Shown one piece after another: positions 2,519-56,103 of a stretch of DNA of 56,444 bases; positions within the stretch are counted from its first letter, which is position 1, and each line of letters opens with the position of its first letter. The translations under genes and the position numbers were made by a program. This stretch comes from Pilasporangium apinafurcum (lineage: Eukaryota > Oomycota > Peronosporomycetes > Pythiales > Pythiaceae): the NCBI GenBank assembly GCA_001600495.1, contig BCKE01000001.1, positions 279,341-335,784 on the forward strand, given 5' to 3'. The notes below the pieces were generated by a model. It saw nothing but the letters and a program-made list of their open reading frames with translations. It made no database searches and was not told the origin of the DNA.

Positions 2519-3583
2519 TTATGGGAGCAAGGAAAGCAGACGATGAGGAGACATCAATGTCGGTGAGAGGACTGGAATCATTCCTGCTGCTGGTGTGGGA
2601 GGAGAAGGAAAAGTTCTAGCGTTCTGAGCAGCATTGAATGTCCCCAATTTTGTATGAGCACAGCAATATCCGGACCGTTGAGCCCATTTTGGACAACCAT
2701 AGTAGTCACAACGTTTGCCTCCGCCATGGGAACGACACAGACGATTTTGATGTGCGTTCTTAGTGCATCCACCGACATTGCATTGGCGTCCACCTCCATG
2801 AGATTTACACAGTCCTCTTGTTTGAGCAAACTTGGAGCAACCATCTTGCTTGCACCGTGAGCCGCCTCCATGTTCTGGACATTTCCCGCGACTCAGTGCT
2901 GACTTATCACAACCGGTGACGCTGCATATTTTACCACTGTGTCGATTGCATAATCCTGCAGAGCGACGTAGGTTGGGACAGTCTGGGTAGGAGCATCGAA
3001 GTTGCTTTTTCTCACCGTTGACATTATTGGCTGTGTTGTTGTTGTTTGTTAACGTGGTGGTTGACGTCTTCTTCTTCTTAAGCGGTGGCATGGTCAACAT
3101 CGGCAATGGTGGCGGTGGAAGGCACGAAGTGATAAGGGGAACAGCAGGCTTGATTGCTTTTGCTTCTTGAAGTTCTGCTTCAAGCGCTGAGTTCAAAGCT
3201 TCATGGAAGAATGGAGGTGGCATTCGTGCAAATTCCTGGATAAATACACGAGGTGGCGAGATGATCGCATTCATAATGGAGGCCGACAACTGGTGTGATG
3301 GTGTCGGAAGTGATGGTAATCCGGCGCTGTGACGAGTTGACAGCGGCTGCAATCGGGTCATACAAGTGACGTTGTCAAAGCAAATTTGTGGAATAGATAC
3401 TTCCACTTGATGGTGTTGGCGCTTGGATGCAGATAAATTGCTGTGCTTTATGGTCGATGAGCTCAAAGGCTGAGGGGACATGAACTCGCCATCTAGCAAT
3501 AGTTCGCGTAAAATATCGTGTTCTTCGGTAGAGCAGGTTGAAAGCCGTCTTTCCGATTCTACATATCCCCTGGCGAAAAACAT
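2519..3583 (-). CDS. Cys/His-repeat protein ('WRKY19-like' of oomycetes)
   Basis: Predicted 354 aa. The first ~190 residues are low-complexity (Ser/Pro, Leu/Pro stretch, basic KKKK patch, Asn run). Residues ~196-310 hold five tandem zinc-binding-type units, each C-x4-C-x9-C-x2-H (for example CSVTGCDKSALSRGKCPEH), most joined by GGG linkers. This array is what oomycete annotations call 'WRKY transcription factor 19-like'; the plant name comes from a similar array beside the WRKY domain, and there is no WRKYGQK here. Nucleic-acid or protein binding is plausible but unproven. The ATG at 3583 is the first in the frame; an upstream exon between 3584 and 3764 cannot be excluded. Confidence 0.75.
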   Translation of the reverse strand: MFFARGYVESERRLSTCSTEEHDILRELLLDGEFMSPQPLSSSTIKHSNLSASKRQHHQVEVSIPQICFDNVTCMTRLQPLSTRHSAGLPSLPTPSHQLSASIMNAIISPPRVFIQEFARMPPPFFHEALNSALEAELQEAKAIKPAVPLITSCLPPPPLPMLTMPPLKKKKTSTTTLTNNNNTANNVNGEKKQLRCSYPDCPNLRRSAGLCNRHSGKICSVTGCDKSALSRGKCPEHGGGSRCKQDGCSKFAQTRGLCKSHGGGRQCNVGGCTKNAHQNRLCRSHGGGKRCDYYGCPKWAQRSGYCCAHTKLGTFNAAQNARTFPSPPTPAAGMIPVLSPTLMSPHRLLSLLP

Positions 3584-4363
3584 CCTGCAGGTTGAAGATA
3601 GCTTCTAGAGGAGGAGTAATCTTGTATTCTAGGACACAAGAACTTCGCGACGGGACACCGAAGCTTAACCCGAAGCAAAGGAAATACAAAAGTGAGAGCC
3701 GTAAAACTTTGGACACGCTGAGGCGACACAATTTGCAGCAGTCAACCAGATACTTCGGACACAACCATAGTTTTGGAATCCTTGCAGCAGAAAACGATTC
3801 AAGTCTTCAGACGAAACCACCATTGCGCACAGCGTTGCTCTATGCTCTCGTAGCTTTTTCTACGAAGTAAAACCTGTTTATCCATTCTTCACACCCACTC
3901 ACCTACCGGAAAGACGTGCCGTTGAGAAAAAGAACCTCTATTAATATACCGTAACTGCTCTCGTTTCATCTTGAACTGTTTCTTCTTTTCAGTACACATG
4001 GTGCTGCATGTACAGACGCCATTTTTGGGTCAGCGACATTTCCACCCACCACCTCCAAACGACTTCCTCAAGCTGTTTCAAGAAAAACGCAGCCGGTGTC
4101 TATCACATCCAGATGCGTTCCGTTAATTTACCGTTCAAATCCAGCTGGATCCAAAGCTTATTGTGGCAGATTTATAGAGCGCGCCTATTCAAAACATCAA
4201 GTGAACGATTACGTTAGTCAGAAATAAGCCATATTCCAGGATACGATAGATGGATACACGTTTTTGGTACTGTAAAAACCTCCAAACGAATGTATCCATC
4301 TACCAGTGTGCGTATGGAGTGCATACCAAGATAGAAAGACATACAGTTTTAGCGGAATACCTC
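3584..4363. other. Intergenic with no firm gene
   Basis: About 780 bp between two minus-strand genes. On the plus strand a short reading frame from 4000 (43 codons, containing FHPPPPNDFLKLF) looks mildly coding but has no partner exon I could splice to it. The 3' part should contain the RTEL1 3' UTR and the stem-loop at 4247-4302. Confidence 0.35.
4247..4302 (-). other. Long stem-loop downstream of RTEL1
   Basis: A perfect 12-bp inverted repeat (tagatggataca at 4247-4258; reverse complement at 4291-4302) is extended inward by cgttt/aaacg (4259-4263 and 4284-4288) after a 2-nt bulge, a 17-bp stem with a 20-nt loop. It lies about 60-115 nt past the RTEL1 stop codon, so it is probably in that gene's 3' UTR or at its transcript end. 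A degraded small transposon is the alternative. Confidence 0.5.
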
Positions 4364-37268: not shown

Positions 37269-40200
37269 ATGGATCCGCGCAAAATTATTGGCATGCCCGA
37301 TCGGTGGTGTGTGAGTCGTCATGGGCCGCGTATTTTGTCGTCTTTAGTACACCGAGTAGCTGCTTCTCTTCTGTGTTTAACTGCGATTGCTGGTGTTATA
37401 TTCGCGACCAATCCGATTCCGCAAGCAGCTGACCTACTCACCATCGTTCATGTTGACTCCGAAAAGGTCTGTCGCCAATTCTACTTGCTTCTTTGTCTTG
37501 CCTACATGAGCATTTACGTCTAGTAACTAACCATCTCTGGCTTTGATTTCTGTCCTGCATTCTGATAGGACGTTCGTTTGGACGCAAATCTCTATATTCC
37601 AGATGGTGGAGAATTGCTACTAAATGTGGAGGTTCCACGCAAAGCCATTCTCATGGACAGCACAGCTCCAGCTAAAGTCACGCGCGTCTACTCCAACCAC
37701 ATATCGGGCAAGTTCGGAGTAGGTGAGGAAATTCAGATTTTTGTCGACTTTACCAGCGCCGTTCAAGTCATTGGCGGGCCGTCAATTGTTTTGCGCACTG
37801 GTTGCCATGAGTCGTCGTGCCATATTCGTGAGATCCAACGGCTGCGTTGCCAGGCCACAGCGGGGAAGTTTGCTGTCGAATTTGCTGGGCAACGCGTGAT
37901 GAACATTCCATACAACTCAGATGAGAAGACGTTTATGGCTTATTTACAGCGTATGACGCAGATTGACCACGTGCTTGTGGAATACAGTATGGACGAAAAT
38001 TCGGCTTGTACGTTCTTTGGAAATAACATCACAGTGACCTTTGAATCAATGAATATCGATGGTAACGACGGCAATCTCGTGGAGATGATTGGCGATCCGC
38101 TCAACACGAACGGCGATGGCACACAGTTGGCTCATATTCGTTTTGAACCAGCACTCACCTCATTAGCGTGGGAATTACAGAAGGGAATTCGCATCCCAGA
38201 TCGATTAGCGACATTTTCCAGTCAAATTTCGCCGACAACACTTCGGTTTTTGTATACAGTTCGAGCAGGCGATAATTCAAGTCGTCTCGAGTACGCCAAT
38301 AGCGACTCACTCGTGCTCTCGATGCTCTCAGGTAATGCCAAGATACTCAATGCCAACACGACGGTACCAGTTAATGCAAAACTGCCGCCACCACATTTCG
38401 CTGGCGATTGGGAAAAAGGCATCGGTAGCAGCTTGTCTGCGAACAATGCGTTGGAGATTGATGTTTCTCCGCCTATTGTTACCAATGTGACCTCACCCCA
38501 TATTGACGGCACATTTGGAATTGGTGAAGTAATTGCTGTGCATGTATACTTTTCGCACCCGATTGTCGTCACGGGGCTACCTACCATCGTCCTGGAAACT
38601 GGTACTGTGGATCGTATTGTCCCTTTTAATCAAGTTGTGATGGCCACCGAGAACATTGCCGAGTTTACATACATTGTACAAGCGAAGGACACGTCGCCTG
38701 ATCTCACGTATGCAAGTACAGTTGCCCTTGAACTGAATGGTGGATCCATCAAACGGAAATCTACGACTCCTACGACTAATGCAGTACTGACACTGCCAGT
38801 CAATGGAGAAAAAGGAAGTCTCTCCGTGAATAAAAACATTGTGATTGATACTTCCGACCCAATCGTCATGAGTGTAACAGCGACTTCCCCCGATGGAGTT
38901 TACACTGCTGGAGATGTGGTTCAGATTCTAGTGACGTTTGACATCCCAGTAGTCGTCATAGGAACCCCACAGCTGCTGCTCAATACCGGAAAAGTGGATT
39001 TGTTTCCTGGACAATTTGTTCAAGCTGCACCCGTGCCACGTACAACCAAAACCATCCTGTTCCCACCAGTGGATCATGGGTTATCGAATGCAACCAGTCC
39101 AGGACTGCAATTTGAAATTGGCGGCGTAGTCTTGACTGTCGCTAGTGTCGATGGCGACCAAGTCACCATGTTGGAAACATATACAGGCACAAAGGTAAAT
39201 GCAACGATGGTGAGTGGTGGTCCTCTGCTACCCATCTATACTCCAGGATACCGGTCTGCTAAGTACGCGAGTGGAAGTGGATCGACAGTGCTTACATTCC
39301 AGTACATTGTCCAAATCGGCGACACAACAGCAGATTTGGATTATATCTCAACTACTGCTCTTCAACTCAACGGAGGTTCAATTAAACGATTGTCAACGAC
39401 ACCGTATACCGATGCAAACCTCACACTTGCTGCTCCTGGATCAACCGGAAGTCTGAAACTTAAAGCCAACATCGCTATCAATACCGACGCCCCACAAGTA
39501 ACCGCTATAACACCGCTTACACGTGATGACATCTATAGAGTGGACGATGTTATTCATTTTAATGTGGTGTTCAACTTGCCTGTGATCACCTTTCAGACAC
39601 CGTCGGTGTTGATAAACATCCCCGGCCGAGAACGTTCTGCTATATATGAGAAAGGAAGCGGAACAACGTCGTTACAGTTTTCTTTTCTCGTTGATAGCAA
39701 TGACGAGGTCGATATCTTTGATGTACTTGACACGAAGGCTTTGCGTGCGTCTTTTGGATCGATTTCTGGATGGATTCGACGGAAAGCTGGGACGCCTATG
39801 CTTCCTGCTCTTCTCGATTTACCCGCTGGTGGTCTTTCATCGAAGGGTATTTCCATCCATCAGGCATACGGGTACATTATATCTGTATCGACGCCACATG
39901 AGGATGGAACCATTGGTGCTGGAGAAGTGATTGACTTTGCGATTACATTCACCACTTCGGTCAATGTCGATACCACCAATGGCATACCCTACTTGATGAC
40001 AACAACGAATCGACCTGCTGCTTACTTGTCAGGAACTAGTACGACTATACTCACCTTTCGTTACGCGGTTCAGCCTGATGATATCTCTACCCGGCTCAAT
40101 TATATTGATATCTTCTCGCTTTTCAATAACGGAGCTGTCGTGACTGCCACGTCAAATGGGAACCCTATGTCATTGGTCCTTCCTCCTCCTTCCTCGAGTG

Positions 40201-43200
40201 GGTTGGCGACAAGCCACTCAATCTTTGTGGATACATCATCACCATTAGTTCAAACCGTCTCAACACGTGCGTACGAAGGCATCTATACCGTTGGAGATAG
40301 TATCACATTCGCAGTGAAGTTTAACTTTCCAGTCGATATTGCACCAGTCGCTATTGAGGCTGGAACACCAACATTGCTGTTAAACGCTGGCGTGGCTAAT
40401 GGCGTGTCCACCTCGTTTATCGGAAGTGAAAGTGATACTGTATATTTTTCGTATAGTATCGCCATTGGCCAGTCAGTCGGCAGCTTGGCATATTTCAGCA
40501 GAACAGCCTTGAAATGCGCAGGGAACAGTGGGATGAATAAAGATCCCGCACAAAACGGCGGGTTTCCCAGCAGTATGTTGTTTCAGACACAGCTGTTCAC
40601 TGCGTGGACGGAAGTCTCAGCAACAACAAGTGCAACGCATATCCGGATTAAATCATTTGATATCCAACGATTTGCTCCAATTTGGTCGTTTGAAGATGGT
40701 GGTGGAGCATCCTCACTTATTAATTTTGATGTTTCGCGTGATGCTGTGGCTCCCATTTTAGTGGTAGTTTCGAGCAAACTATACGTTGTATGGCAAGAAT
40801 CGAGTACAAACACCAACAATCCAGGGCAGATCCGTGTTGCTGTGTATTTAGGGAATAGTAGTGGAGGTTCCGCGCGGCGGTGGATGTTTATTGACAAGAA
40901 CCCAGCAAGCAGCACCGGAATAAACAAGGATTCTACACAGAATGCATTCGCCCCTCACGCTACTAGCCACAACTCGAAATTGTATGTCGCGTGGCACGAA
41001 AATGCGGGTACATCTTTCGTGCCTCAAGTCCGAGTGGTAGTTTATAATGGACAAGATGGAACTCCTGCGTGGCTATTCATTGACGGGAATCAGGGAGCGC
41101 AAGGATTGAATTTTGCATCGGCCAAAGCAGCTCGGAACATTCGCCTAACATCTTGTGGTGCATTAGCAAGTTCATCCTCGGTTCTTTATGCCGTTTGGGA
41201 GGAACAAGCATCGACATTGAATATTCCACAAATCCGCGTCGCCGCTCAAATGGGTACCGATGCGGCTCCAAAATGGACGTTTGTCGACGGAAATGGTGCT
41301 TTTGGCCTAAATTTTGAAACCACGATGAGTGCAAATGCACCAAGTATCACGTGTTTGAATTCGAAAGTTGTGGTTGCTTGGCAAGAGGTTACTGCATCTG
41401 GAGTAACGAGAATTCGAGCAAAAATGTTTAATGGATATCTCACAAATCCGGCTTGGACAGTGCTCGATAATGGTAAAGGATTAAATATTGACCTATCACA
41501 GAATGCAGCGAACATCCGCCTTCGCGTAGGATCAACTGGATTACTGTACGCATCGTGGCAAGAAGTGGAAAAAGTCAGTTTGAACAGTCAGATTCGAGTG
41601 GCAATGCTAACATTTTCCAGTTCCGTACCAACGTGGCAGTTTTTGGATGGCGGTGGAGCTATCTCAAATATAAACGACGATATTTCCCATGATGCTACCC
41701 GTCCAGTATTAGTGTTATCAGGACAATCACCAGAAGTTGTATATGCGATGTGGCAAGAAGTCCACGCAAATAGTAAGATCCATGTTCGAGGCAGTGTGCT
41801 CAAATCATCTGAGCTTAGTTGGCAGTCGTTGCATTATGGATGCATTCGTCGCGCATCGACCAACGCTTTCACTCCAGCGAATCTACTGTTACCCGAGTTG
41901 AACACGCCTGGTGCTTTGGATTTTGGCAAAGCGATTCAAATAGACACGTCGGTGCCAGTGGTGCGAACTATAACGCTAAGTGGTGACATTCCTCGTGTCA
42001 CGAGTACAGCGAGTGTGTTGCAAACCATTGATATTTTTAATAAACGTAGTATAAGTCAGGGGGAATACAGACTACGTTATGGCGATTCGTTTGAAACCAA
42101 GTGTATCAGCTGGAATGCAACTGGGAGTGGATCCGGTTCTGTTGAAGAAGCTTTGGAATCGATATCGGGCTTGGGACTAGATGTTTCAGTTTCGAAAGAT
42201 TCGACAGCATTTCTCGACGGAGATCGATATTTTATTACGTTTGCATTTCCCTCGACAGGATTACAGAGATTGCAGGTAAAAACAACTAATGATGCTACTT
42301 GTGATACTTTTGTATGTTCATCGAATGCGCGTTTACCATGTGGCTTGAGCCTGATCCGTGTAAACTCAAATATTGATGTGGGACTACGAACGGGTGTGGT
42401 AGATGTAGCCGTTCAATTTTCATATCCTGTGGTTGTGTCAGCAAATACCGCTGTTGCTCCTACTCTACGCCTCAATACGGACGCAGTTGGTCAAGATGCA
42501 GTATACACTGCGAGAAGCGCCTTTCTAGAGTTTGATGTTGGTACAGAGAGTCCAAGTCCAATCGTAAAGGGTGCGTTTCGGTTAGCGTATGGTGACTTTA
42601 GTACTGGGATTGGAGTGGGGACAATCTATACAACCAATTGCATCGACATTGCAATGAACGATGATGATGCTATCCAAGAGCTTCGCTCCAATCTAGAAGC
42701 AATTGTACCGCTAAACACGATTGGCATTCGTGCAATCTCCAGACGAACCCTGCGTAATGGATATCGCTATGGGGTCACGTTTCGTAGTAGTGGAGATCTA
42801 CTCGATCTGGTCGCAGGAAATTCGGCCACTTGCCGCTCGTTTGCAGGACGAACACAAACTATTGATATCACGGCAACGTCGGCCATTCAACAAGGTGAAA
42901 TAATTGTTCAACTCGGAGATGCTGTGAGTGCGTGCATCCCGTGGAATATTCGCGCCAAAGGGAGTTCATCTTCAATGGAAAGTATCATTAGTGCTTTGGT
43001 CCCAGATCGCGTGATTCCCGTCCAAGTCATAAAAGATCCGACCACATTTACGTACGGTCATCGATACTACGTGAATTTGATGATATTGGACGATGTAAAG
43101 CAACCGCTTCTTGCCTTCAATGACGCGTCTTGTTCTCCATTTCTTTGTGATGGTTCTGTGGCTTGTGTTGGGCTGACGATAGCTGTGAATGCCGACTTCA

Positions 43201-46200
43201 AGGTGACTCGTGCCTATTCGGAAACACTGTCGTTTCGGTATACCGTGCAAAATACAGATGATGTGTCGCTACTCACATACAAAGATGCATCTGCACTTCG
43301 TGGAGATATTCTCAGGGCTTCTAATAATCCAACTATTGCAGCATCCTTGGCGCTTACTTACCCACCGAATCCTATCCTGGTACCAAATATCGACTACCCC
43401 TTGACCATAGTGAGTTTGAATGCAATCCCAACCGTCGTAAGTGTATATGCCATATCGCTTGATGGCGTGTACACCGCTGGTGACGTGATTATAATATTCG
43501 TTGAGCTTTCAGACCCTGTATTTGTCCAAGGCTCGGCAATCCTAGAACTCAACTCTGGTGGAACTGCTGTATATTTTTCCGGAAGCGGGACGAAAGAGCT
43601 AGAATTTCGATACAAAGTCTTGAGTGGCGAAACATCAGCCGATCTGGACTATTTATCGATATATTCGCTGCGCGTATCTACTACAAGTGCCCTTCCTTCA
43701 CGAATCAGCGGAGGCTCAGACCCGTTATATCAGATGGATGCGAATTTATTACTCCCACCACTTGGAAGCGCATTGAGCCTCGCCTCCTACAGCAGTCTGG
43801 TTATTGACACGACTCAACCAACAATTGTATCAGTAACTTCAGCTCGTCTCGATACGCCTGCTGGTGAGTCTGGTTACGGCGCCGGTGACATCATTGATAT
43901 CGTGATTCAGTTTTCAACTGACGTCGTTGTATTTGGTGTTCCTTCATTGGCTCTCAATTCCGGCGGCACTGCCAAGTTTACCTACGCTGGCTATCGTCAA
44001 GTGATTGATGTCGGGGTTCATGCCCGTTTTCCTGTTGTATCTGGTGAATTCGCAATTATCTATGGAGACCAACTATCCGGCTGTATCGACTATACCGATG
44101 CGCAGAGTACTTCAGCTAAGTCACTAAAGTCTCGATTGCTGGAGATCGAAGCCATCAAGCGGATTGGGTTGCTATCCGTGTCATTGGTTCGCGTAAAAAA
44201 TGGTCATCGCTTTGTCATCGAATTTGACTCTACACAGGTACTGGACGTTCCAGTAGCTATTGAGCCCATACAGTCTGATGTTTGTGCTCCGCTCCTTCCT
44301 GCAGACGACTCTGCCGCTCATATGATCACAAGAAGTACAGATACTTTTGTGACCTTCCACTACACGGTTGGCACTGGTGAGCACTCAACTGACCTGGACT
44401 ATGTTGGCACATCACTGACCATGGTAGGGAGCGATACATCTATTAAGCGACGTTCTCGCGTACCAAGTATTGTCGCAGACGTCACACTGGCTGGAGCTCG
44501 GTTAGCCTCTACGAAAGACTTGGTGGTCGATGGCACCAGTGTCTCCATTGTTGATATCGTGGCAGACACTGCTGGCGGAACTTATGGTGTTGCGTATCCA
44601 GCAACTCCGAGCCCTCTGACAGTCGATCCAGGTCAAATCCTCTTCCACTTGATCTTTTCACGGCCAGTAACAGTAATCGGATCGCCTACAGTAGAACTTG
44701 CAACAGGCTCATTACAAGCCAATGGCGTGTACTTGTCTAACCGTGTCGCAACATTTGCTGGACAACCACAACCAAACCAAGTCGCGTTTCTCTACAGCGT
44801 GCAAGAGGGTGATTATAGTGCAAGCCTCTCGTTTGCGCGTCTCGATGCACTCGCTGATGCCCAAATCTATGTTGTTTCCAGCACAATGTCAGTGCTAGCG
44901 AATAGAATCCTGCCGCGATTGATGATATCAGCCACTTCGACCATCGCCATTGACGCTCATTCAGCCCCTACCACTGTGAAAGTGTCGGCTCTTCACAGTA
45001 ATGGCACGTTTGGCGCTGGTGAAGCAATCAAGATCCAAGTTATCTTCTCCAAGGAGGTCATTTTACAGACCGGGTTGAACCGCAACCAAGACTTCCACGC
45101 ACGTAACCCGTTCGCGCTGGAATTCCAAAACAATATTTACATTTTCTGGACGGAATGGGAATCGTTGTATGCTCGGTCCAAGAGTTACCTTTACCTGAAT
45201 GTCTTCGCCAGTGACACGCTAGAACTCGTGTCGATGGCCACCACATCGGCGATGAATCGTATTCCAGATACGTTTATTGAAAAAGTAACCGCAGTAGTAT
45301 GGAACAACGCGATCTATGCGGCGTGGGACGAAGGTGGATTGATCTATTGCGCTGTTTATAATGGTCTCGTGGCCACAGTACCTTGGACACTGATTCCAAA
45401 CATGGGAGCTAACAAAGACATGGCGATGCCTGCTAGCGATCCGCTGCTGATTGTCCACAATCTCGAGCTGATGCTGATTTGGAGAGAGGAGATCTCCTCA
45501 TCTGCCAATACTGGGCAGCGCATTGGGCAAATTCGCGTGGCGCAACGCAATGATGACTATGATGCTCCGCTTTGGATTTTCCACGACGGAAACCAGTTGC
45601 AAGCAGGGCTCAACAAGGACCCAACCATGAACGCAAGAGACCCCTCTGCTATCGTTTACCTTGGAAGACTCTATTTGGCATGGTCAGAATACAACAAAAA
45701 TATGAACGCGTACCAAATCATTGTAACGATACGATATATTAAAAATCGAGATGAGTCGACTTGGGTGTATTTAGAAGGAGCGGCATCCACCAAACCTTCC
45801 TACACCTTCATCTCGTCGTATCGTCCGCGATTTGGCGTGCGAAAGAAAGGTTTTGAAGACACGGCGCTATTACTTTCATGGTATCGGGATACAGCGACAT
45901 CGAATGCGAGTGAAGTCGTGACGAGCCAAGTGTTGGATTTCACATGGGAGGCATCTACCACCGCCAATATTCCTGAAGTGGTTATAGGCATCACGAATCT
46001 GACAGTGGAGACAATACGTCCAAACGCCAAGGATCCCCAGTTTGGAGCTTGTGGCTCTAATTTGTATTCATTATGGAGAGAAATTCCACAGGATTCAAAC
46101 CGTGTTACTATGGGCAAAGTCGCCTCGCTGAGGTCCAATCTGGATCTCTTCACAGGGTGGACTAACGCACTTCCTTTCGAAGTGTTTAACCACAATACCG

Positions 46201-49200
46201 TCATGGATGTGGTCGATTCATGCTTAGTTTGCTCGTCATCATCAAATCCACACGTGGGCATCCTGTGGACTGAATTCGATGAATATTCCACGAAATTGCG
46301 CTTTCGTCATCAGCTTCTATATCAATATACCATCGATGATGTAATGAACACTCTAATAAGAAACTCGTATGGTGAAGTCACGTCTGGGACACCTCTTCTA
46401 TCGCTGGCGACAACGACAGTACCCCCCGGAACAGCTATTTGCATAGACAAAAGTGGGCTACAGTCGAGTATTTTAACATTTCTTTACCTGGTTCAACAAA
46501 ACGACGTAGCAGCCGATTTGGATGTACTCGATTCAAATGCATTTCTTCCCAACGGGGCAAAAATCTGCGACGTATTACAGCAAATACCGAGCTTTACTTT
46601 TTTTCCAGGGGCGAATGACTTTCGGAGCTTGAGTTACAACAACGACCTGAAAATTGATACAACTAGCCCAACGGTAGCGGACGTGTCTGCATTGACGGCG
46701 TCAGGCGAATATGGAGTGGGCGAAGAAATCTTGATTCAGGTCACGTTTACTGCTCCAGTGATTGTGCTTATCGATACCGACAATAACCTCCCCAAGCTCT
46801 ATCTTCGGTCTGATGAGCTTCATTATTACGATGCTCAGCGAAGCTCAGCCATTTATCTCGACGGATCCGGTACCAATATACTGACATTTAAGTACATTAC
46901 TACGGTGCTCGACTATTGCAGCCGCTTGGACTATTTTTCATCGGATTCACTCATTCTTGACGGTGAGACTGCTCTTCGCCGGCTGGCGACATTTCCAACT
47001 ACTGATGCCAGTTTAATGCTTCCTCCACCAAGGTCTCAACACTCGCTTAGCAGTAACCGTGCAATTGCCATCAAAGCGACACAACCACAAATTTTAGCAG
47101 TCAATTCAACCGCTCCAAATGGAACATACTATCCGGGAGATTCTATTCTGGTGCAAGTGTTATTTTCCTTACCTGTGACGGTCTTTGGTGCTCCTATCCT
47201 TCTTCTTGACACGGGCAAAGTGAATTTTACAGAAGCAGAGCTCGTCTCTGGTAATGAATCAGCGACACTTATGTTTGAATACAGTATTGAGGAAGGCGAT
47301 ACGAGTGCTCGGCTGGATCTTGCAGATGACCGACAGGGTGACATGACATTAACTTATGTGATGTCATTGATATTATCACAAGGATCACAAATCAAGCGCA
47401 CGTCCGCGGACCCCTATACTGACGCTGTCATATCACTACCTGCGCCTGGACTCCCTGGATCGCTTTCTGCAAACAAGAACATTGTCATTGACTCGGCACG
47501 TCCAACTGTCGTTGATGTACGCACCACCACGCCCAATGGGACGTATGATATCGGACAAGAAATTGAAATTCTCGTGGAATTTTCACGAAAAGTAGTAGTC
47601 ATCGGAACGCCCGAACTGGTCCTCAATATTCCAGCTCCATCAACTAGGACAGCCAACTACCATAGTGGCTCAACGACAGCACTTCTTCGCTTCACATATA
47701 CCATAGCATATGGCGACAACACATTGAACACGCCTTTTGATATTGCTGGCACGAATGCTTTCATTTTACGCTCTTTGCTTATTGAAAAAGGAATCATACA
47801 AGCGTCTGCCCAGGTCTTCTGTCTCTCCGCAAATCCAACACTTGCGGCAGATCTTACTCTGCCTCGACCAGGCGTCCCTCTCCGCGTGAATGCTGTTCGA
47901 AGTCTAGTGGGGAATAATCACAAAATTTACATCCGGACTGATGGATTTCGCGTTCAGGACGTTCAAGCGGATATACTGAGTGGCATTTACTCCCCTGGTC
48001 AGCGAATCATTCTGATTGTTACGTTCACGGATAAAGTCGTCGTACAGGGTTCTCCTCGCATCAAACTGAACGCCCATACTCTGGTCGCCACTTATGCAAC
48101 ATACATTGGTGGTTCTGGTACCACTCAGCTGCAGTTTACTTATACCATTATCTCAGGTGATAGCTGTCTCTGCCTCGATGCGGCATCTCAGTATGGGTTG
48201 GAGCTAAATCAGGGCGCTATCACGGATATGAACGGTGTGAATGTTCCGCTGCAGCTCGGTGCATTGTCACAACCTGGTAGCTTGTCATTCAATAAGCAAA
48301 TCGAGATTTCGTCTCAGCCACCGACTGTAGAGCGTGTTTATTCACTAATCAACAATGATGGAGACTATGGTGTCGGTGATGAGTTACAACTCGCAGTTCA
48401 GTTCTCGCGGAAAGTCACAATTGCACCTGCTTCGGCCCCGACACTGCTGCTTCAATTTGCATCGGGTACTCGACAAGCAACGTATACGTCCGGTGATGGA
48501 ACGCAAACACTACGGTTCACGTTGACAACACAGAGCGGCGATGCCACGGCAGCATTGGAGTATGCAGATCAGCACGCGCTTGTTGGTACCATATTCGCGT
48601 CAGCAACGACACCAACGCTTGCTGCGGATCTGCTATTACCGGTTTCAGGCACAGTCGGGAGTCTATCTAATAGCTCACTCATCCGTGTCGTCTCAATGCC
48701 ACCGCAGATTATCTCAGTCCGAGCTGCTGATCGAAATGGGACGTACGGATATTACGACACCCTTCGAATTCGCGTCCAGTTTTCGTTTCGAGTGGTGGTG
48801 ATGTCGTCCTCTTCGTCTTCGTGTGTCCTTGCCCTTTCGGTAGGGAACAGCGAAGTGTGCAACGCCGTCTATATTGGCGGGTCGACGACCAAAATCTTGG
48901 AGTTTGAGTATAAAATCGAGATGGGTGACCGCTCACGCCGCTTGGGTTATGTGGATTCCAACAGCTTAAAGTGTTCGATACTCCAATTTAGTAAAGCACC
49001 GTCACTTGCCGCTGTGACTACACTTCCTTCACCTGGTACAGATGGGAGTCTAGGTTTCTCATCCGCCATACGCATCGACTCGTCAGCACCACGGATATTG
49101 TCCGTGTCGTCATTACTCACAAATGGGATCTACGGGGCTGGGCAGGTTATTAATCTGATCACTACTTTTTCCGAGGCAGTAATGATCACAAATGGGACAC

Positions 49201-52200
49201 CGCGACTACGACTCGCGATTGCGTCAAATTGTATTGAACACAATACTGGCACTCAGTATGCTACATACACAACGGGATCTGGCACCAATGTTCTCACTTT
49301 CCAGTACATTATTAAAGAGGGTGACATGGCATTTCCTTTGGAGTACGACGGGGTTGACGCACTCTCCATGGACACGAAAGAAGGTAAAATTACCGCTGCA
49401 ACCAGTGCATATCGGCTCGTATCGTTGCGTCTCCCTATCTCACGCACGACCGGCAGCCTCAGCAACAATTGTGACATTCGTATCGATACGTTAGAGCCCC
49501 CAAGAGTGATCGCAGTGGGAAGCCCGACAACCGACGGTATCTATACTGTGGGTGATACATTGCAGTTCTCGATCACATTTTCCGCACCTGTTGCTGTCAC
49601 AGGAACACCAACGCTGTTGCTGGATATTGTAAACTTCATCGAGACCAATACTACTACCAAACAAGCAAAATACATATCCGGAAGTGGCACAGCCTCACTT
49701 CTTTTTGAGTACGAAATCCAAGTCGGCGATCACTCAGATCGACTCGATTACCGACCTTGCCCTTTCACGGAACGTAGACCACCGAAGAAACGGGAGTGGG
49801 ACAATAATGTGATATGTACGCCAGATGCCAATGCATTGCAGTTGGGGGTTGGTGGGAGCATTAAACGCATGTCGACTTTCCCCGTCACAGACGCAATTCT
49901 AGATTTACCTGAAGTGAGTGCGTGGCCAAAAGTGCGCTTCGCAACGTCAAGCCAAGGCTTTGTGTACGTGAATCAGGTGACAGCAACCACAGGGACACCG
50001 CCGAGTGATCAGACCATCTTCTCGTTGCCTACAAATGAAGTCTCGATCTCTCAGCAGCAAGCGTCGGTCTATATCTATAGCAACGGTGTCCCTCATCACG
50101 CCAGCACCCTCCTCGACACCAATCAAATCGAAGAGCAGCGATACTTTATCGAATTGAATCGCTTTCCTGTGCAGGTCAGCAATCCTCTCGTACTGGGGAC
50201 ATCACCATTCGATGGATTTATTGGAGTTTTTCTCAATGGGATTCCATTCAAAAATGCCTCAAACGCGGCATCTCTTCTCGCTGTCGATGATGCGTGCGGT
50301 GGAGCGTTAGATGAACAAGGACGGTATTTTTATCGATCGCTTCCTATATGCTATCTCGATGGGATTCATGAGGAGATCGATGTAAATGAATTGACTCATC
50401 ACGCGTCACGAATCGTTGGATATGCCTTTGATGGATTCCCAGTGTTTGGATTTTACGACGAACGCGGCGAACTCCCGTCATTAGATGAATGCAATGGACG
50501 GGTGCGCGATGATGGTCAATATGGATATCATTTGGTGCCACCATCTTCTTCTTCTACGTCCCCAAGCGCGCGTTCAGTATTCATGCCATGTTTGAGAGGT
50601 ATGAGTGCGGCTTCATCAGTGAAGTTGAATGTGTTTCGGTCTCCTGTGGATATTGGAGTTGTCGAAGGACTATCGTTAGCAGCGCTCAGTCACTTTGACG
50701 GACTGGTCGTGGATGAAAACCCGGCGACGCCATTGACAGCTTCTTTGTGGCTCAACCCAACTGGAGTCTCAGTGATATACACATCATCCAGCGTGGTCGT
50801 GCGAAGCACTGGCGTCCCTGATGGGCAATACGGTCCATTTCCAAACACACACAACCGTTTTGTGGTCAAGGAGCAAAATTACGTCTTCCAGCTGCCGCGG
50901 CAGCCCATCGTCAGCTCCAGGACAACTCCGTTACCGCAAGATTCGCCCATCGGCGTGATGATCAATGGTGTCCCATTCTATACTTACCAAACTGCCGCCT
51001 ATGGGAACGTTATGGACAGCAACAGCCCTGCACTTTTACTATTTGACAAGTGCAATGGACTCGTGGATGAGGGAGGCGATTACCGTTACTACGCATCACC
51101 GGATTGCTTGCTTCATGAACTGGGAGGCGACCAGCCGAACCAACCTTCGCCATTGATTGGGTATGCACTGGATGGGTTCCCTCTCTATGGTCCATACACG
51201 GAAAGTGGCACATTGGCACAAGGGCTATTGGACGATTGTAACGGAAGAATCGGCGATGATGGTTTGTATCGTTACCATGTCACAGCACAAGCCCCGTATT
51301 TGCTTGGATGCTTTCGAGGTCAGCTATCTGCATCATCTACACTCGATATTTATCGAAGCCTGAGTTATAGCCATGCACTTCGCATCAACACTGACCAGCC
51401 ACGGATTGTACAAGTATTCACTAATAATTATCCAGGCACGTATGTAGTGGGTGAGACGCTTGATATCATGATCGAGTGGTCTACGCCGGTTCAAGTTGAT
51501 ACTTCACTCGGAATCCCAACGCTGAGCATTCTCAATTCATCAAATGTAGCGACATACAATGCCACTTGGAGCACATCACGACGATCGGCGTTCCGCTTCT
51601 GTGTGACTAGCGATAATGGGGAGTTTAACTACGACACAAGAGCAGTGATACAGCTTAACAGAGCCACTATCAAGCGAATTGCACAAGTTCCGACTTTGGA
51701 GGCCGATCTTCGCCTGGTGCATGCTGAAAAAATCTCGAGATTTGCCTCCAAGCACCAGCTGATCAAGGACTTACGTGTCGTGATAAGGGGACTCTATCAT
51801 CCCCAAGCAAGCGATTTACGTGTTCGCCTGTTTCACGGTGGCCAAGAAGCATTGTTGTTTACTGGCTGCTGCGATCTCAGAGACGCCTTTGGATTACCGG
51901 ATGCCACAGTACGCGTGAACATGGAGCAGATCGGTATTTATCCCCGCAATCCAACCAGCGGTGTTGGGTTTGACTACGGATTCCAGGACTCGACTATCGA
52001 AAAGAACTTGGCACGTGATGGCAGAGCCACTGCATTGCAGAGCTCGACTAGTGCCCAATGCGTTGCATCCAATGCTATTGATGGTCATGTCCATGGCTTC
52101 ATTTCTAGTCAGAGTGTAGCACAAACAGAGGCGAAACCGAACCAACGCGCATGGTGGGAACTCCGATTGCTTGACAGTACTGTCATCGGCACCATTCGTC

Positions 52201-53777
52201 TCTGGTTACCGGAAGAAGAAGCGTCGCCAGCAGTGGTGCAAGTGTTGAGTGTGAATGCAAACGATGGAGTTTCCCAAGTGGCTGGAACGTTCACGCTCGT
52301 GTTCACACGGCCGAATGGTGAGCAGCAAATCACTGGCGAAATTAGCGTGAATGCCGTCGCAATGGTGATTGATGAAGCAACTGCCACTAGTAATCCCGGA
52401 ACTGGTAAGGACGAATCACTCCAAGCAAAATTGGCTGCGCTGTCGGAAATGCCACGGCTGTTCATCACGCGATCACCTGCGGATGCTGCGCTTTCACCCA
52501 ACGGAGCGTTCACGTGGTTCATCACGTTCCTGGACAACCCACGTATATACAACAGCAGCATACCGTTATTATCGATTGGAGAGAATTCCGTCTTGCAAGG
52601 CAACGGTATTGTCCGTCTCTCGTCGCCATTGCCTGCAGACGATCGAGACGAGCTTGAGTATCGTGAGACCGACCGTCGCATTGACAACTTGACGCCTGAC
52701 AGGAACGTGTCGATGTTCCCGTTTTGGATCATGCTCTTTGATGCACAGGCAATGATGGATTTTGAGACGCTAGCGCAGGCGCAGGAGAATGCGGTCTGGA
52801 GTCATCGTGTCGAGCACTCGACGATAGTCAGTCGCTGGATGATCTCTGTGAATCCCCCGTCGGGCTTGAAGGCGCAGTACATTCGTGTTATCGCGGAGAG
52901 CTTCGATGTGGCAGTCACACTCGCGGAGGTCGAAGTGTTCCAGGAACGCAGCCATTTACTTTCTCAGTACGCAAGTGGGTCACCTGTGACGACAGTGTTT
53001 CATCCCGGAGCGGAGACATGGTCCCCGGAAGAACCATTCCAAAATATTTTTGGTGGACTGACAAGCGAAGGTGTGTGGACATTGGCAATCCAAGACACAA
53101 CACTGGAGCGAATCGACCGAGTCGGGGGCGGTGCTTTCTCTTATCACGGGGCTGGAGCGCTTTCAGATTGGGTGCTTTATGTGACGAATCTAGCAGGAAA
53201 AACACAGGTATACTATATGGATATTAGCGCACATATCAAGACGTTGCCGCGTCATGGGAAGCTTTTCATCGGCATCGAGGAGACGGAAGCAGATCACGTG
53301 GATGTGGATCGCAACGGCGTACTAGATTCAGTGGAAGCAAGCAGCTATTTGCAGCAATACACGGTGGATTATGATCTTTTGCCTGAAGGCAGGCGCTTGC
53401 GAACATTGTGGAATTTTCTCAAAGAATACGAGGAATTTGACGGGATTGAGGTGCTCACAGATCCAAGCGAGCGGCAGAAACTGCTACCGATCGCCTGTGA
53501 TCGAACATGTTTAGCTGGTTATGGTGTTGATCCATATTTTGATCCAGCGACGACCAAGGGCGATGTGGCGACGAAACTCATGCGTGTCACCGGGGATCGT
53601 GTGATCAAGTACATCCCTAATGATGGATTTCAAGGCGTTGATACCTTGACATTTGCTATTTCTATCGGAAATCAAGAGTCGTTGGTGCTGGGCACCGTGG
53701 AGATCAAAGTGAAAGAGTGCCAGGATCCCCCTGATTGTTGGATGGACATGGATTTTATCGATCGCAACAACTACTAA
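37269..53777 (+). CDS. Giant multidomain surface/extracellular protein (about 5,468 aa)
   Basis: Exon 1 (37269-37466) carries a basic start and a hydrophobic segment (VAASLLCLTAIAGVIFA), a likely signal peptide or anchor; exon 2 runs 37569-53777 without interruption. Residues ~103-4200 are about 20 adhesin-type beta-sandwich repeats (pattern VxSVxxxxxDGxYGxGDxI, VTF, LxLNTG, GSGTxxLxFxYxV, LDYxSTxAL, IDTxxP). Nested inside are two seven-bladed propellers (40530-41830; 45080-46380) and 'GEFxxxYGD' modules. Then two YHYH domains (50060-50630, 50790-51350), another repeat, a split P domain with an inserted F5/8-type module, an EF-hand loop DVDRNGVLDSVE (~53300) and a final cadherin-like IKYIPNDGFQG. 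No C-terminal membrane span is seen. Presumably secreted or wall-bound. Neighbours have many introns; this gene has one. Confidence 0.9.
40530..41830 (+). repeat. Seven-blade propeller inserted in adhesin repeat 6
   Basis: Seven ~60-aa units recur, each with an 'LYxxWQE' strand (FTAWTE, YVVWQE, YVAWHE, YAVWEE, VVAWQE, YASWQE, YAMWQE), a QIRVA strand and a 'W.FIDGNG..GLN' turn. The insert falls in the loop where ordinary repeats read 'ALQLNGGSIKR': ALKCAGNSG precedes it and GCIRRAST resumes the repeat. Confidence 0.75.
45080..46380 (+). repeat. Second seven-blade propeller, inserted in adhesin repeat 11
   Basis: Seven units marked by YIFWTE, YAAWDE, LIWREE, YLAWSE, LLSWYR, YSLWRE and GILWTE. 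This one sits in a different loop: it interrupts the strand that normally reads VTFSxPVxVxGxPxLxL (VIFSKEVIL before; SGTPLLSLATT after). Blades 5-7 are more diverged than in the first propeller. Confidence 0.72.
51760..53190 (+). other. Split P domain with nested F5/8-type module
   Basis: LRVVIRGLYHPQASDLRVRL...LFTGCCD and, 1.1 kb later, FGGLTSEGVWTLAIQDTT...DWVLYVTN are the two halves of a proprotein-convertase/P-like jelly roll. Between them is a galactose-binding-like F5/8 C module (NLARDGRATALQSS, SNAIDG, WWELRLLDSTVIGTIRLWLP ... YIRVIAESFDVAVTLAEVEV), whose own middle (52240-52580) is a module with GTFTLVFTRPNGEQQITGEI and WFITFLDN. Domain names are from motif recognition only. Confidence 0.65.
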
Positions 53778-54105: not shown

Positions 54106-55227
54106 TTAGTACGTCTGCGTCGTACTGGTCGACGGATCCTCCGTCGGTTTGCCGCCAGAAGTCGCAGAAGAAGGCGGGGCAGTCGGTGGCACCGTCTTCA
54201 CCGGCGATGGCGCAGGCGTCGGAGCCTTCGTCACTGGAGCGGTCGTTGGAGGTTCCGTCACTGGAGCAGTCGTTGGAGGCTGGGTCTCTGGCGCAGGCGT
54301 AGGTGCTTTCGTAGCCGGAGGAGCAGTGGTCGGCGCTTTNGTTGGAGGTTCCGTCACTGGAGCAGTCGTTGGAGGCTGGGTCTCTGGCGCAGGCGTAGGT
54401 GCTTTCGTAGCCGGAGGAGCAGTGGTCGGCGCTTCCGTTGGCGGTTTTGTGACCACAACTGGCGGCTCAGGTGCTGGTGTCACCGTTGGCGTGTCCGGCG
54501 CTGGGGTAGATCCTCCTGAACTGGGAGGAGTGTTAGGTGTCGGGGTATAGCCATCCGAGCTGGGGGGGGTGTTTGGAGTGTTTGGCATCGGAGTAGATCC
54601 ACCAGAACTCGGTGGAGTATCTGGCTTATTGGGTGTTGGTGTCGAACCACCCGAACTGGGAGGCGTATTCGGAGTATTTGGCGTGTTCGGCATTGGGGTC
54701 GATCCACCTGAACTTGGAGGAGTATTTGGAGTATTAGGAACAGGCGTCGGCGCAGACGATGGTGCACATGGTGTCTCGTTATCTCCTCCCCACGTGATCA
54801 CCGAGCTAGGATTGTATCCTCCCCATGACCACGTATTTGAGTCCGTCGTGGGCGTGTCCTTGTCCGTATCGTCACATGGCGTCTCCGGTGATCCCCACCA
54901 CGTATTGGAGTCACCGGTCGAAGGAGTGGATCCCCACGAATTGGTGGGCGTGTTTCCGTCGTCGGCGCAGGGAGTATCAGCATTACCGCCACCTCCCCAA
55001 GAGTAGCTTGGCGTGTTACCAGTGGAAGGAGTCGCTCCCCACGAATAGCTGGGCGTGTTTCCGTCGTCGGCACATGGGGTGTCAGCATTACCGCCGCCTC
55101 CCCAGCCACCCCAGCCACCACCGCCGCCGCCACCACCACCATAGCCACCACCCCACGTGGCAGCACTGGTGTCTACGAATGAACTGATGGCGACCGCAAC
55201 GAGTGCGATGTTAACGAAGATCTTCAT
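54106..55227 (-). CDS. Secreted Gly/Trp- and Thr/Pro-rich mucin-like protein
   Basis: 373 aa. Residues 1-22 (MKIFVNIALVAVAISSFVDT) are a good signal peptide. Then a Gly-rich stretch with Trp (GGGGGWGGWGGGG), repeated 'NADTPCADDGNTP...SWG' units (each with one Cys), then 'PNTPNTPPSSGGSTP' repeats and a C-terminal Thr/Pro/Ala mucin region (TEPPTTAPVTKAPTPAP). Likely heavily O-glycosylated and wall-associated or extracellular. No enzymatic domain. One base is unknown (n at 54340), sitting exactly at a repeat junction. Probably intronless. Confidence 0.8.
   Translation of the reverse strand: MKIFVNIALVAVAISSFVDTSAATWGGGYGGGGGGGGGWGGWGGGGNADTPCADDGNTPSYSWGATPSTGNTPSYSWGGGGNADTPCADDGNTPTNSWGSTPSTGDSNTWWGSPETPCDDTDKDTPTTDSNTWSWGGYNPSSVITWGGDNETPCAPSSAPTPVPNTPNTPPSSGGSTPMPNTPNTPNTPPSSGGSTPTPNKPDTPPSSGGSTPMPNTPNTPPSSDGYTPTPNTPPSSGGSTPAPDTPTVTPAPEPPVVVTKPPTEAPTTAPPATKAPTPAPETQPPTTAPVTEPPXKAPTTAPPATKAPTPAPETQPPTTAPVTEPPTTAPVTKAPTPAPSPVKTVPPTAPPSSATSGGKPTEDPSTSTTQTY
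54245..54436. repeat. Two near-identical 96-bp tandem units
   Basis: Copies 54245-54340 and 54341-54436 are identical apart from the end (ctttn versus cttcc). Each encodes 32 residues of the Thr/Pro region. The ambiguous base n is the last base of the first copy, so copy number here may be wrong in the assembly. Confidence 0.85.
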
Positions 55228-56103
55228 GAGTGCAGGATCAAGTGTTGTAAGGAGAAGTAGTTGTTGCTTGTTGGTGTGAAGGCAAATGAAAGAATGAGAT
55301 GGTGGTTGGCATGTAAATGGTAGCTGAGCGCATCATGATATTTTTTTTTGCTGTTTGTGTTGTTGCGGATCGTTTCGGGGCAGACTGGAGACGTGGCCTT
55401 TACGATGTGGAGCAGTTTTTACCATATCGCCATGGTCGTCAGCTCCATGAAGAAATGTCTTTTCACTGACCGTACATGTCTAAATGGGTGCCACTTCACT
55501 CCGATTGGTCAACTTGCAATCCATCTGATGGATCATATACTGGATTACAGTCTGTATGGTTCAATCGCACAGCTGTTACATGATTTTTTTCATTAACATC
55601 ACATCGATGCGAATTGTAAAAACACTGCATGTATCCATCCATGTGTACTGTTGAAGGCTAGAGAGGCGGAGAAGTGACCTCTACTGTGCTGTATGTATGC
55701 GCACATCGAGATTGGCATGACAGACAAATCCTAAGATGAACGCTTCCTGGTCCGTTAATGAGTGCGATCAGCGGAGCTGTGAAGTAAAGGATGAAAATGC
55801 GAACCAATGGACCAACTTCAGCTAATCGACATCTTTTATACACAAGCCAGTCTGCAGTGATAACGCTTGAAGCGCAGAAACGAAAGAAGAAAAACAGACA
55901 CATAAGGTTGTCCGTAAGGTTGAGGATGCGGTTGACGAGAGAACTAGCATACCTTACCCAATGAACAGAAATCCACATCTCGACGGTGCAACATGTATTG
56001 ACTCGTCAAATACTCAAATATCTAAAATGCAACTTACGCAAGCTGCAGTGTAAGGTAAGCTCTCTCACTAGCATAGCCAATAAGCACATTAACTACAAGC
56101 AAA
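55228..56103. other. Intergenic region between two mucin-like genes
   Basis: 876 bp. A 106-codon minus ORF at 55658-55978 has a hydrophobic run but no motif and is probably chance. The first ~150 bp beside 55227 would be the promoter of the mucin-like gene. Confidence 0.4.

Follow-up and report, generated by a model that had tools for sequence, protein, structure and literature searches.

How does an oomycete come to carry a protein of more than five thousand residues that is assembled from a repeat otherwise familiar, to our knowledge, from giant bacterial proteins, and what might such a protein do? The question is raised by a gene of Pilasporangium apinafurcum that lies in a stretch of 56,444 nucleotides (assembly GCA_001600495.1, contig BCKE01000001.1, positions 279,341 to 335,784, forward strand), which is called the window below and to which all coordinates refer unless another contig is named. 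What is new about this gene is that modules are inserted into loops of seven of its 20 repeats, and that the same genome holds a second giant gene with eight copies of the repeat, combined with FG-GAP and Calx-beta domains. As judged by sequence comparison, the repeat family is one that occurs in giant proteins of many bacteria. On balance we lean towards the view that the product is a secreted, unanchored giant extracellular protein that works like the bacterial giant adhesins, with a rod of 20 repeats and heads plugged into seven of them.

The gene is dominated by an uninterrupted stop-to-stop frame of 5402 amino acids at 37569-53777 (+). At this base composition, the probability of a stop-free run of that length is about 10^-120. 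An ATG at 37269 is probably joined to the long frame by a 102-nucleotide GT..AG intron (37467-37568), which gives a predicted product of 5468 amino acids, or about 590 kDa before sugars. Introns of 51, 117 and 123 nucleotides that use other donors also keep the frame, and the donor is therefore not fixed by sequence alone. The hydrophobic stretch encoded by exon 1 is probably a secretion signal. A large exon behind a short leader exon had been proposed in an earlier, sequence-only reading of this DNA, and at the level of sequence the frame and the probable intron bear this out. With a crude intron-motif scan, no motif was found in the giant frame and two on its antisense strand; in the 37 kb upstream, the same scan gave 5 motifs on one strand and 14 on the other. 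The parts of the gene are as follows, with the type of evidence in brackets.

37269..37466 (+): exon 1, leader with a hydrophobic stretch at residues 30-48 (mean hydropathy 1.95)
37467..37568 (+): probable 102-nucleotide GT..AG intron (CTAAC branch-like motif, spotted by eye)
37569..53777 (+): exon 2, open frame of 5402 amino acids without interruption (frame call)
37668..38468 (+): repeat 1, split by an insert module at about 37809-38150 (profile)
38469..38855 (+): repeat 2, uninterrupted, the most bacteria-like of 12 units compared (profile, identity, tree)
38856..39488 (+): repeat 3, with an insert of about 55 residues without family match at about 39006-39170 (profile)
39489..40238 (+): repeats 4 and 5, uninterrupted (profile)
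40239..41951 (+): repeat 6, split by a propeller-like domain of about 430 residues at about 40530-41819 (profile, predicted model)
41952..43424 (+): repeat 7, weak, with two interruption sites and three insert modules in total (profile)
43425..43814 (+): repeat 8, uninterrupted (profile)
43815..44537 (+): repeat 9, split by a single insert module at about 43986-44306 (profile)
44541..44960 (+): repeat 10, divergent (profile)
44964..46664 (+): repeat 11, split at another site in the repeat by a domain related to the repeat-6 insert, at about 45075-46319 (profile, sequence only)
46665..49493 (+): repeats 12-18, a head-to-tail run of seven copies without interruption (profile)
49497..51392 (+): repeat 19, with a YHYH domain pair near the repeat end at about 49941-51323 (profile, Pfam)
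51393..51770 (+): repeat 20, divergent (profile)
51771..53774 (+): C-terminal region, with a weak F5/8-type-C-like domain (about 51993-52988) followed by a weak Big_9 / tandem-95-like end (family matches below cut-off)
about 52221-52595 (+): candidate insert module nested in the F5/8-type-C-like domain (profile)

The repeats were recognized with a profile made from the protein's own units, which finds 26 pieces scoring 12 to 144 bits, the best score among 100 shuffled copies of the giant protein being 3.8 bits. The pieces were assembled by reading into 20 repeats of about 129 residues, in agreement with the 'about 20' divergent copies noted earlier. Units of 12 of the 20 repeats (11 uninterrupted ones and the first part of repeat 19) served for training; their mean pairwise identity is 33%, with a range of 24-44%. 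Prediction of the structure of a single unit gave a confident all-beta model, with a predicted local distance difference test score (pLDDT) of 94.0 and a predicted template modelling score (pTM) of 0.87. The nearest structures in the PDB are antibody V domains, which match weakly (best E 5e-3, template modelling score (TM) 0.39). The model thus suggests an immunoglobulin-like (Ig-like) unit without a close solved relative in the PDB structure search.

The split repeats are numbers 1, 3, 6, 7, 9, 11 and 19, and the evidence of insertion is best for repeats 1, 3, 6, 9 and 11. When the insert is removed, each of these five gives a single full-length match (80, 130, 85, 72.5 and 59 bits, respectively), as compared to 31+33, 42+85, 46+16, 31+24 and 24+30 bits for the separate halves. 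The insertion points were mapped by reading, with correction of a four-residue offset between profile and model numbering; on the predicted model they would fall within loops or on the final residue of a strand, near positions 10, 36, 50-51, 60-62, 91 and 113.

One kind of insert is a module of about 100 residues, for which a loose pattern, G-x-[FYI]-x-[LV] ... [WYFI]-x-[IV]-x-[FL], was read by eye; it is present in six copies in the window gene and in six in the second giant gene, where the copies sit in or between FG-GAP repeats. Its profile scores are inflated because all 12 copies found were training rows. Independent blastp comparisons connect copies within the window gene at E values of 1.7e-12 to 0.036, and window copies with those of the second gene at 1.3e-6 and 2.5e-5; the C-terminal copy (residue 4971) has no such blastp support at E 0.05. 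The inserts of repeats 6 and 11, both of about 420 residues, form a related pair: in pieces they share 22-29% identity, with E 7e-11 for the best alignment. The model of the repeat-6 insert (pTM 0.75, seven strand groups by our own count) points tentatively to a propeller-like fold: in a structure search the best match is a glycoside hydrolase (E 2.7e-8, TM 0.56), and 243 of 705 matches have an E value up to 0.001. The top matches are sialidases and the glycoside hydrolases BACCELL_00856 and BT3686, with identities of about 10%; these two hydrolases are seven-bladed. By sequence, the pieces holding either insert have no relatives in the PDB. The repeat-6 insert has one relative among plasmid records (E 4e-9), a small protein on a Tepidibacter plasmid with phage terminase genes (locus L129), and none among phage records nor, by pattern, in IMG/VR. 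The YHYH pair of repeat 19 passes the curated cut-off of PF14240 (117.5 bits against 25, in three stretches). Relatives of this domain occur in 19 plasmid records, in 15 of which the feature is named plainly 'YHYH protein', and in none of 14 control genomes.

The bacterial character of the repeat, proposed from the sequence alone, is backed by profiles, by tblastn and by the confident predicted model. In an hhalign comparison, window and bacterial units match over the full length of the repeat (122 columns, probability 99.9%, E 2.5e-34). A profile made of window units only scores bacterial units with up to 137 bits, as compared to 113-144 bits for its 12 training units and 56-114 bits for the eight units of the second giant gene. 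With seven tandem repeats as tblastn query, 21 of the 72,556 plasmid records gave matches, the strongest at E 6e-36; 13 of these records are from Azospirillum, Agrobacterium, Sinorhizobium or Bradyrhizobium, and in 1 of 50,697 phage records. Among genome contigs, relatives of a bacterial seed made up 251 of 379 candidate stretches. The 80 best of them yielded 78 loci, which by their record titles belong to many phyla; as many of these loci are metagenome-assembled genomes (MAGs), wrong phylum labels are possible in some cases. Of 36 candidates in IMG/VR, 13 were relatives, and among 200 genomes of one phylum a match was found in 33, including one previously known carrier. Single-protein scans of genome contigs and viral contigs gave no relatives. 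Of the 100 loci that had been fetched by similarity from bacteria, archaea and viruses (9 plasmid, 13 viral and 78 genome), 99 have full units as detected by the window-built profile, 303 units in total.

The bacterial proteins concerned, annotated as 'Ig-like domain-containing', 'autotransporter-associated beta strand repeat' or DUF4347 proteins, share the repeat by profile and are also encoded in giant frames, as in Azospirillum sp. B510 (AZL_RS33780) and Niveispirillum (C0V82_RS26145). In four of the nine plasmid loci the repeat gene is followed by genes for TolC and HlyD-type export proteins; four others have no annotation there and the ninth is cut inside the gene. In contrast, the window gene has a leader exon and an intron, very divergent copies and inserted modules, and no TolC or HlyD gene is found among the Pfam matches of the ten other window frames scanned. 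When the giant protein was scanned as six overlapping pieces, Pfam gave no family for the first four (E up to 0.1) and NCBIfam none for five (E up to 1), and three window units had no match at E up to 10 to any Big model, Big_12 included. For a Niveispirillum unit the nearest model is Big_12 (E 0.00048, 20.7 bits against a cut-off of 27). Big_5 is matched by a piece from Acetoanaerobium in which six distant relatives of the repeat occur (116 bits, 8 stretches). The wider family thus borders on catalogued bacterial Ig-like domains, and it shares their general class even though the window units tested match no Big model. A relation to intimin, indicated by a weak phmmer match (E 0.0059), was dropped when a 12-row profile gave no match at E up to 1.

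A search of the organism's own genome with seven repeats gave at least 15 matches, each of which lies either in the window gene or in a single further frame:

contig C5, 336895-348156 (-): second giant gene, single frame of 3754 amino acids (own-genome search)

This paralogue has eight repeats (56-114 bits), FG-GAP_2 in 12 stretches, Calx-beta and the insert modules mentioned above. Since its repeats also lie on one frame, the long exon is common to both genes. This bears on a second proposal of the sequence-only reading, that the long exon is a retrogene, that is, a reverse-transcribed copy of a spliced message. The lack of intron-like motifs in the giant frame would agree with such an origin, but an intron persists near the 5' end, the paralogue likewise consists of one long frame, and no intron-rich parent is seen among the own-genome matches, so that we consider it highly improbable. 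Elsewhere in the genome, an open frame of 1142 amino acids has a stretch at C37:93886-94119 (+) that weakly matches the paralogue's Calx-beta end (E 0.005).

The combination of repeat and FG-GAP_2 is not unique to eukaryotes, since it is also present on a Verrucomicrobia MAG contig (locus L077), where one frame of at least 3444 amino acids has three full repeats, 13 FG-GAP_2 stretches and DUF4347, without a Calx-beta match at E 0.001. This bacterial protein shares the combination with the paralogue and adds DUF4347 and other Big domains, whereas its domain plan differs from that of the window gene. The suggestion that the architecture is not a described system therefore holds in part: among the open-licence papers listed, no title or first lines of an abstract describe such a protein in oomycetes, but the pairing with FG-GAP has this bacterial counterpart. 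In a survey of interdomain transfer in oomycetes (PMC5023847), a word search for adhesin, Ig-like, cell surface, putative secreted and repeat gave no hit.

Regarding the origin of the gene, codon use is host-like, with a correlation of 0.944 to six pooled neighbours and a GC content at third codon positions of 0.457, within the neighbours' 0.41-0.56. The comparison, which the sequence-only reading had recommended, is a blunt one, since wrong frames still give correlations of 0.84 and 0.79. A recent horizontal acquisition of an entire bacterial adhesin gene, with only a leader exon added, would be in line with the single huge exon, with the bacterial-type parts and with the fact that the Verrucomicrobia protein joins the repeat with FG-GAP as the paralogue does. 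Yet such an event is quite improbable in view of the host-like codon use, the mere 24-44% identity among the 12 units compared and the presence of a diverged paralogue, and because the insert module, the YHYH domains and the propeller parts have no match in any of the 100 bacterial and viral loci.

For deeper relationships a tree of 95 units was calculated, with 12 units from the window gene (repeats 1, 3, 6, 7, 9, 10, 11 and 20 were left out), all eight from the paralogue, and 75 of the 81 non-redundant bacterial and viral units to which the 303 had been thinned. Two of its 92 branches are starred, so that the tree gives little resolution. The free tree places two window units and one paralogue unit among the bacteria, but a tree that holds the 20 eukaryotic units together is better by 35.4 log-likelihood units (approximately unbiased test, p-AU 0.811), and a clade of the 12 window units alone is not rejected either (p-AU 0.552). 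A single eukaryotic clade is thus acceptable, which means that one eukaryotic origin is enough and many separate transfers are not needed. Horizontal transfer, as suggested earlier, is compatible with these data but is not demonstrated by them.

The same tree is compatible with vertical inheritance, in which an old family, present in bacteria and many eukaryotes, became long and fast-evolving here without any transfer into the lineage. The longest end branches are those of window and paralogue units, and the existence of two paralogues that have diverged and differ in their added domains implies age. On the other hand, window unit 2 is closer to bacterial units (47.7% identity to a Niveispirillum unit, 52% to a Turneriella unit) than to its 11 sisters (at most 44%), with the reservation that these values come from different alignments. 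Moreover, the plasmid relatives of the YHYH domains and of the propeller, together with the absence of YHYH from the control genomes, fit vertical inheritance less well. We regard it as a serious possibility, if not a favoured one. The most likely origin would be an ancient uptake from bacteria, after which duplication and the insertion of domains would have taken place within the eukaryote. In its fullest form, which we offer tentatively, the lineage may have taken over a bacterial adhesin kit (Ig-like repeat, FG-GAP, YHYH), added a secretion exon and grafted domains into the Ig loops, by which the rod became a scaffold for heads. Part of this same reading is the 12-copy insert module, with copies in Ig repeats, others in or between FG-GAP repeats, and one in the weak F5/8C-like region.

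What the protein does can be envisaged by analogy with the bacterial giant adhesins. The 20 Ig-like beta-sandwich repeats would form a long rod, which would hold ligand-binding heads away from the cell; candidate heads are the domains in seven repeats (the two propeller-like domains, the YHYH pair and the small modules) and possibly a sugar-binding end. The C-terminal region itself misses the F5/8 type C cut-offs even when the nested module is removed (F5_F8_type_C_2 16.9 bits against 27.8, F5_F8_type_C 15.4 against 28.2), and it has a match in locus L085 with 35% identity over 51 residues (E 0.003). A resemblance to the P domain of proprotein convertases was not confirmed; the joined pieces gave no Pfam family at E up to 0.1. 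The highest 19-residue mean hydropathy in residues 4801-5468 is 1.16, so that no membrane anchor is evident, and windows of at least 1.6 outside the leader fall in the repeat region. That the protein is secreted, rod-shaped and able to bind, and that it serves as an adhesive, a cyst coat or a matrix protein, is our inference.

Several points weigh against the picture of a secreted rod with inserted heads that derives from bacteria. Without a detected anchor, a location at the surface is only conjectural. The fold matches of the unit are weak, none of 1963 having an E value up to 0.001, and the model of the repeat-6 insert has a pLDDT of 62.4. Two of the split repeats are not cleanly restored: repeat 19 remains in two pieces after joining and repeat 7 remains weak, and for this reason their interpretation as split repeats is based on position and order. 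The bacterial sample was selected through a bacterial motif, and units close to the consensus are over-represented in it. Finally, the repeat may be old in eukaryotes, the comparisons having covered the organism's own genome, bacteria, archaea and viruses.

It is also conceivable that the product is not adhesive but belongs to a secretory vesicle, where it would have a structural or storage role comparable to that of the glycoprotein in the large vesicles of oomycete zoospores. According to PMC3869178, Phytophthora zoospores secrete adhesives on encystment, and their large peripheral vesicles contain a glycoprotein that exceeds 400 kDa; this protein, PnLpv, stays in the vesicles during encystment. 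As described there, it is likewise a giant glycoprotein of the oomycete secretory pathway, and the absence of a membrane-like stretch at the C-terminus of our protein would suit storage as well. In a storage protein one would not usually expect so many different domains of binding type, and we consider this role unlikely, while the adhesin-like function remains our preferred reading.

Seven of the ten other frames in the window have Pfam matches (zinc finger, TPR, AAA, kinase, WW, WD40 and LRR), and contamination was rejected on the basis of these flanking eukaryote-type domains and the host-like codon use. The frame at 2519-3604 (-) has WRKY19-type zinc fingers (PF24906, three stretches), a family common in oomycetes. 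The convergent neighbour at 54106-55332 (-), which includes one ambiguous residue and has no Pfam match, encodes a secreted-looking protein in which a Gly/Trp-rich part is combined with a mucin-like tail of Thr/Pro-rich repeats; Thr/Pro-rich secreted-looking proteins are typical of oomycetes.

The gene provides a defined eukaryotic example of this repeat family, whose tested window copies went unrecognized by the models of Pfam and NCBIfam. It is also a clear instance of a single Ig-like scaffold that has received modules at about five different sites. If the bacterial origin is true, it would mean that an adhesin architecture, and not just enzymes, has moved into a eukaryote.

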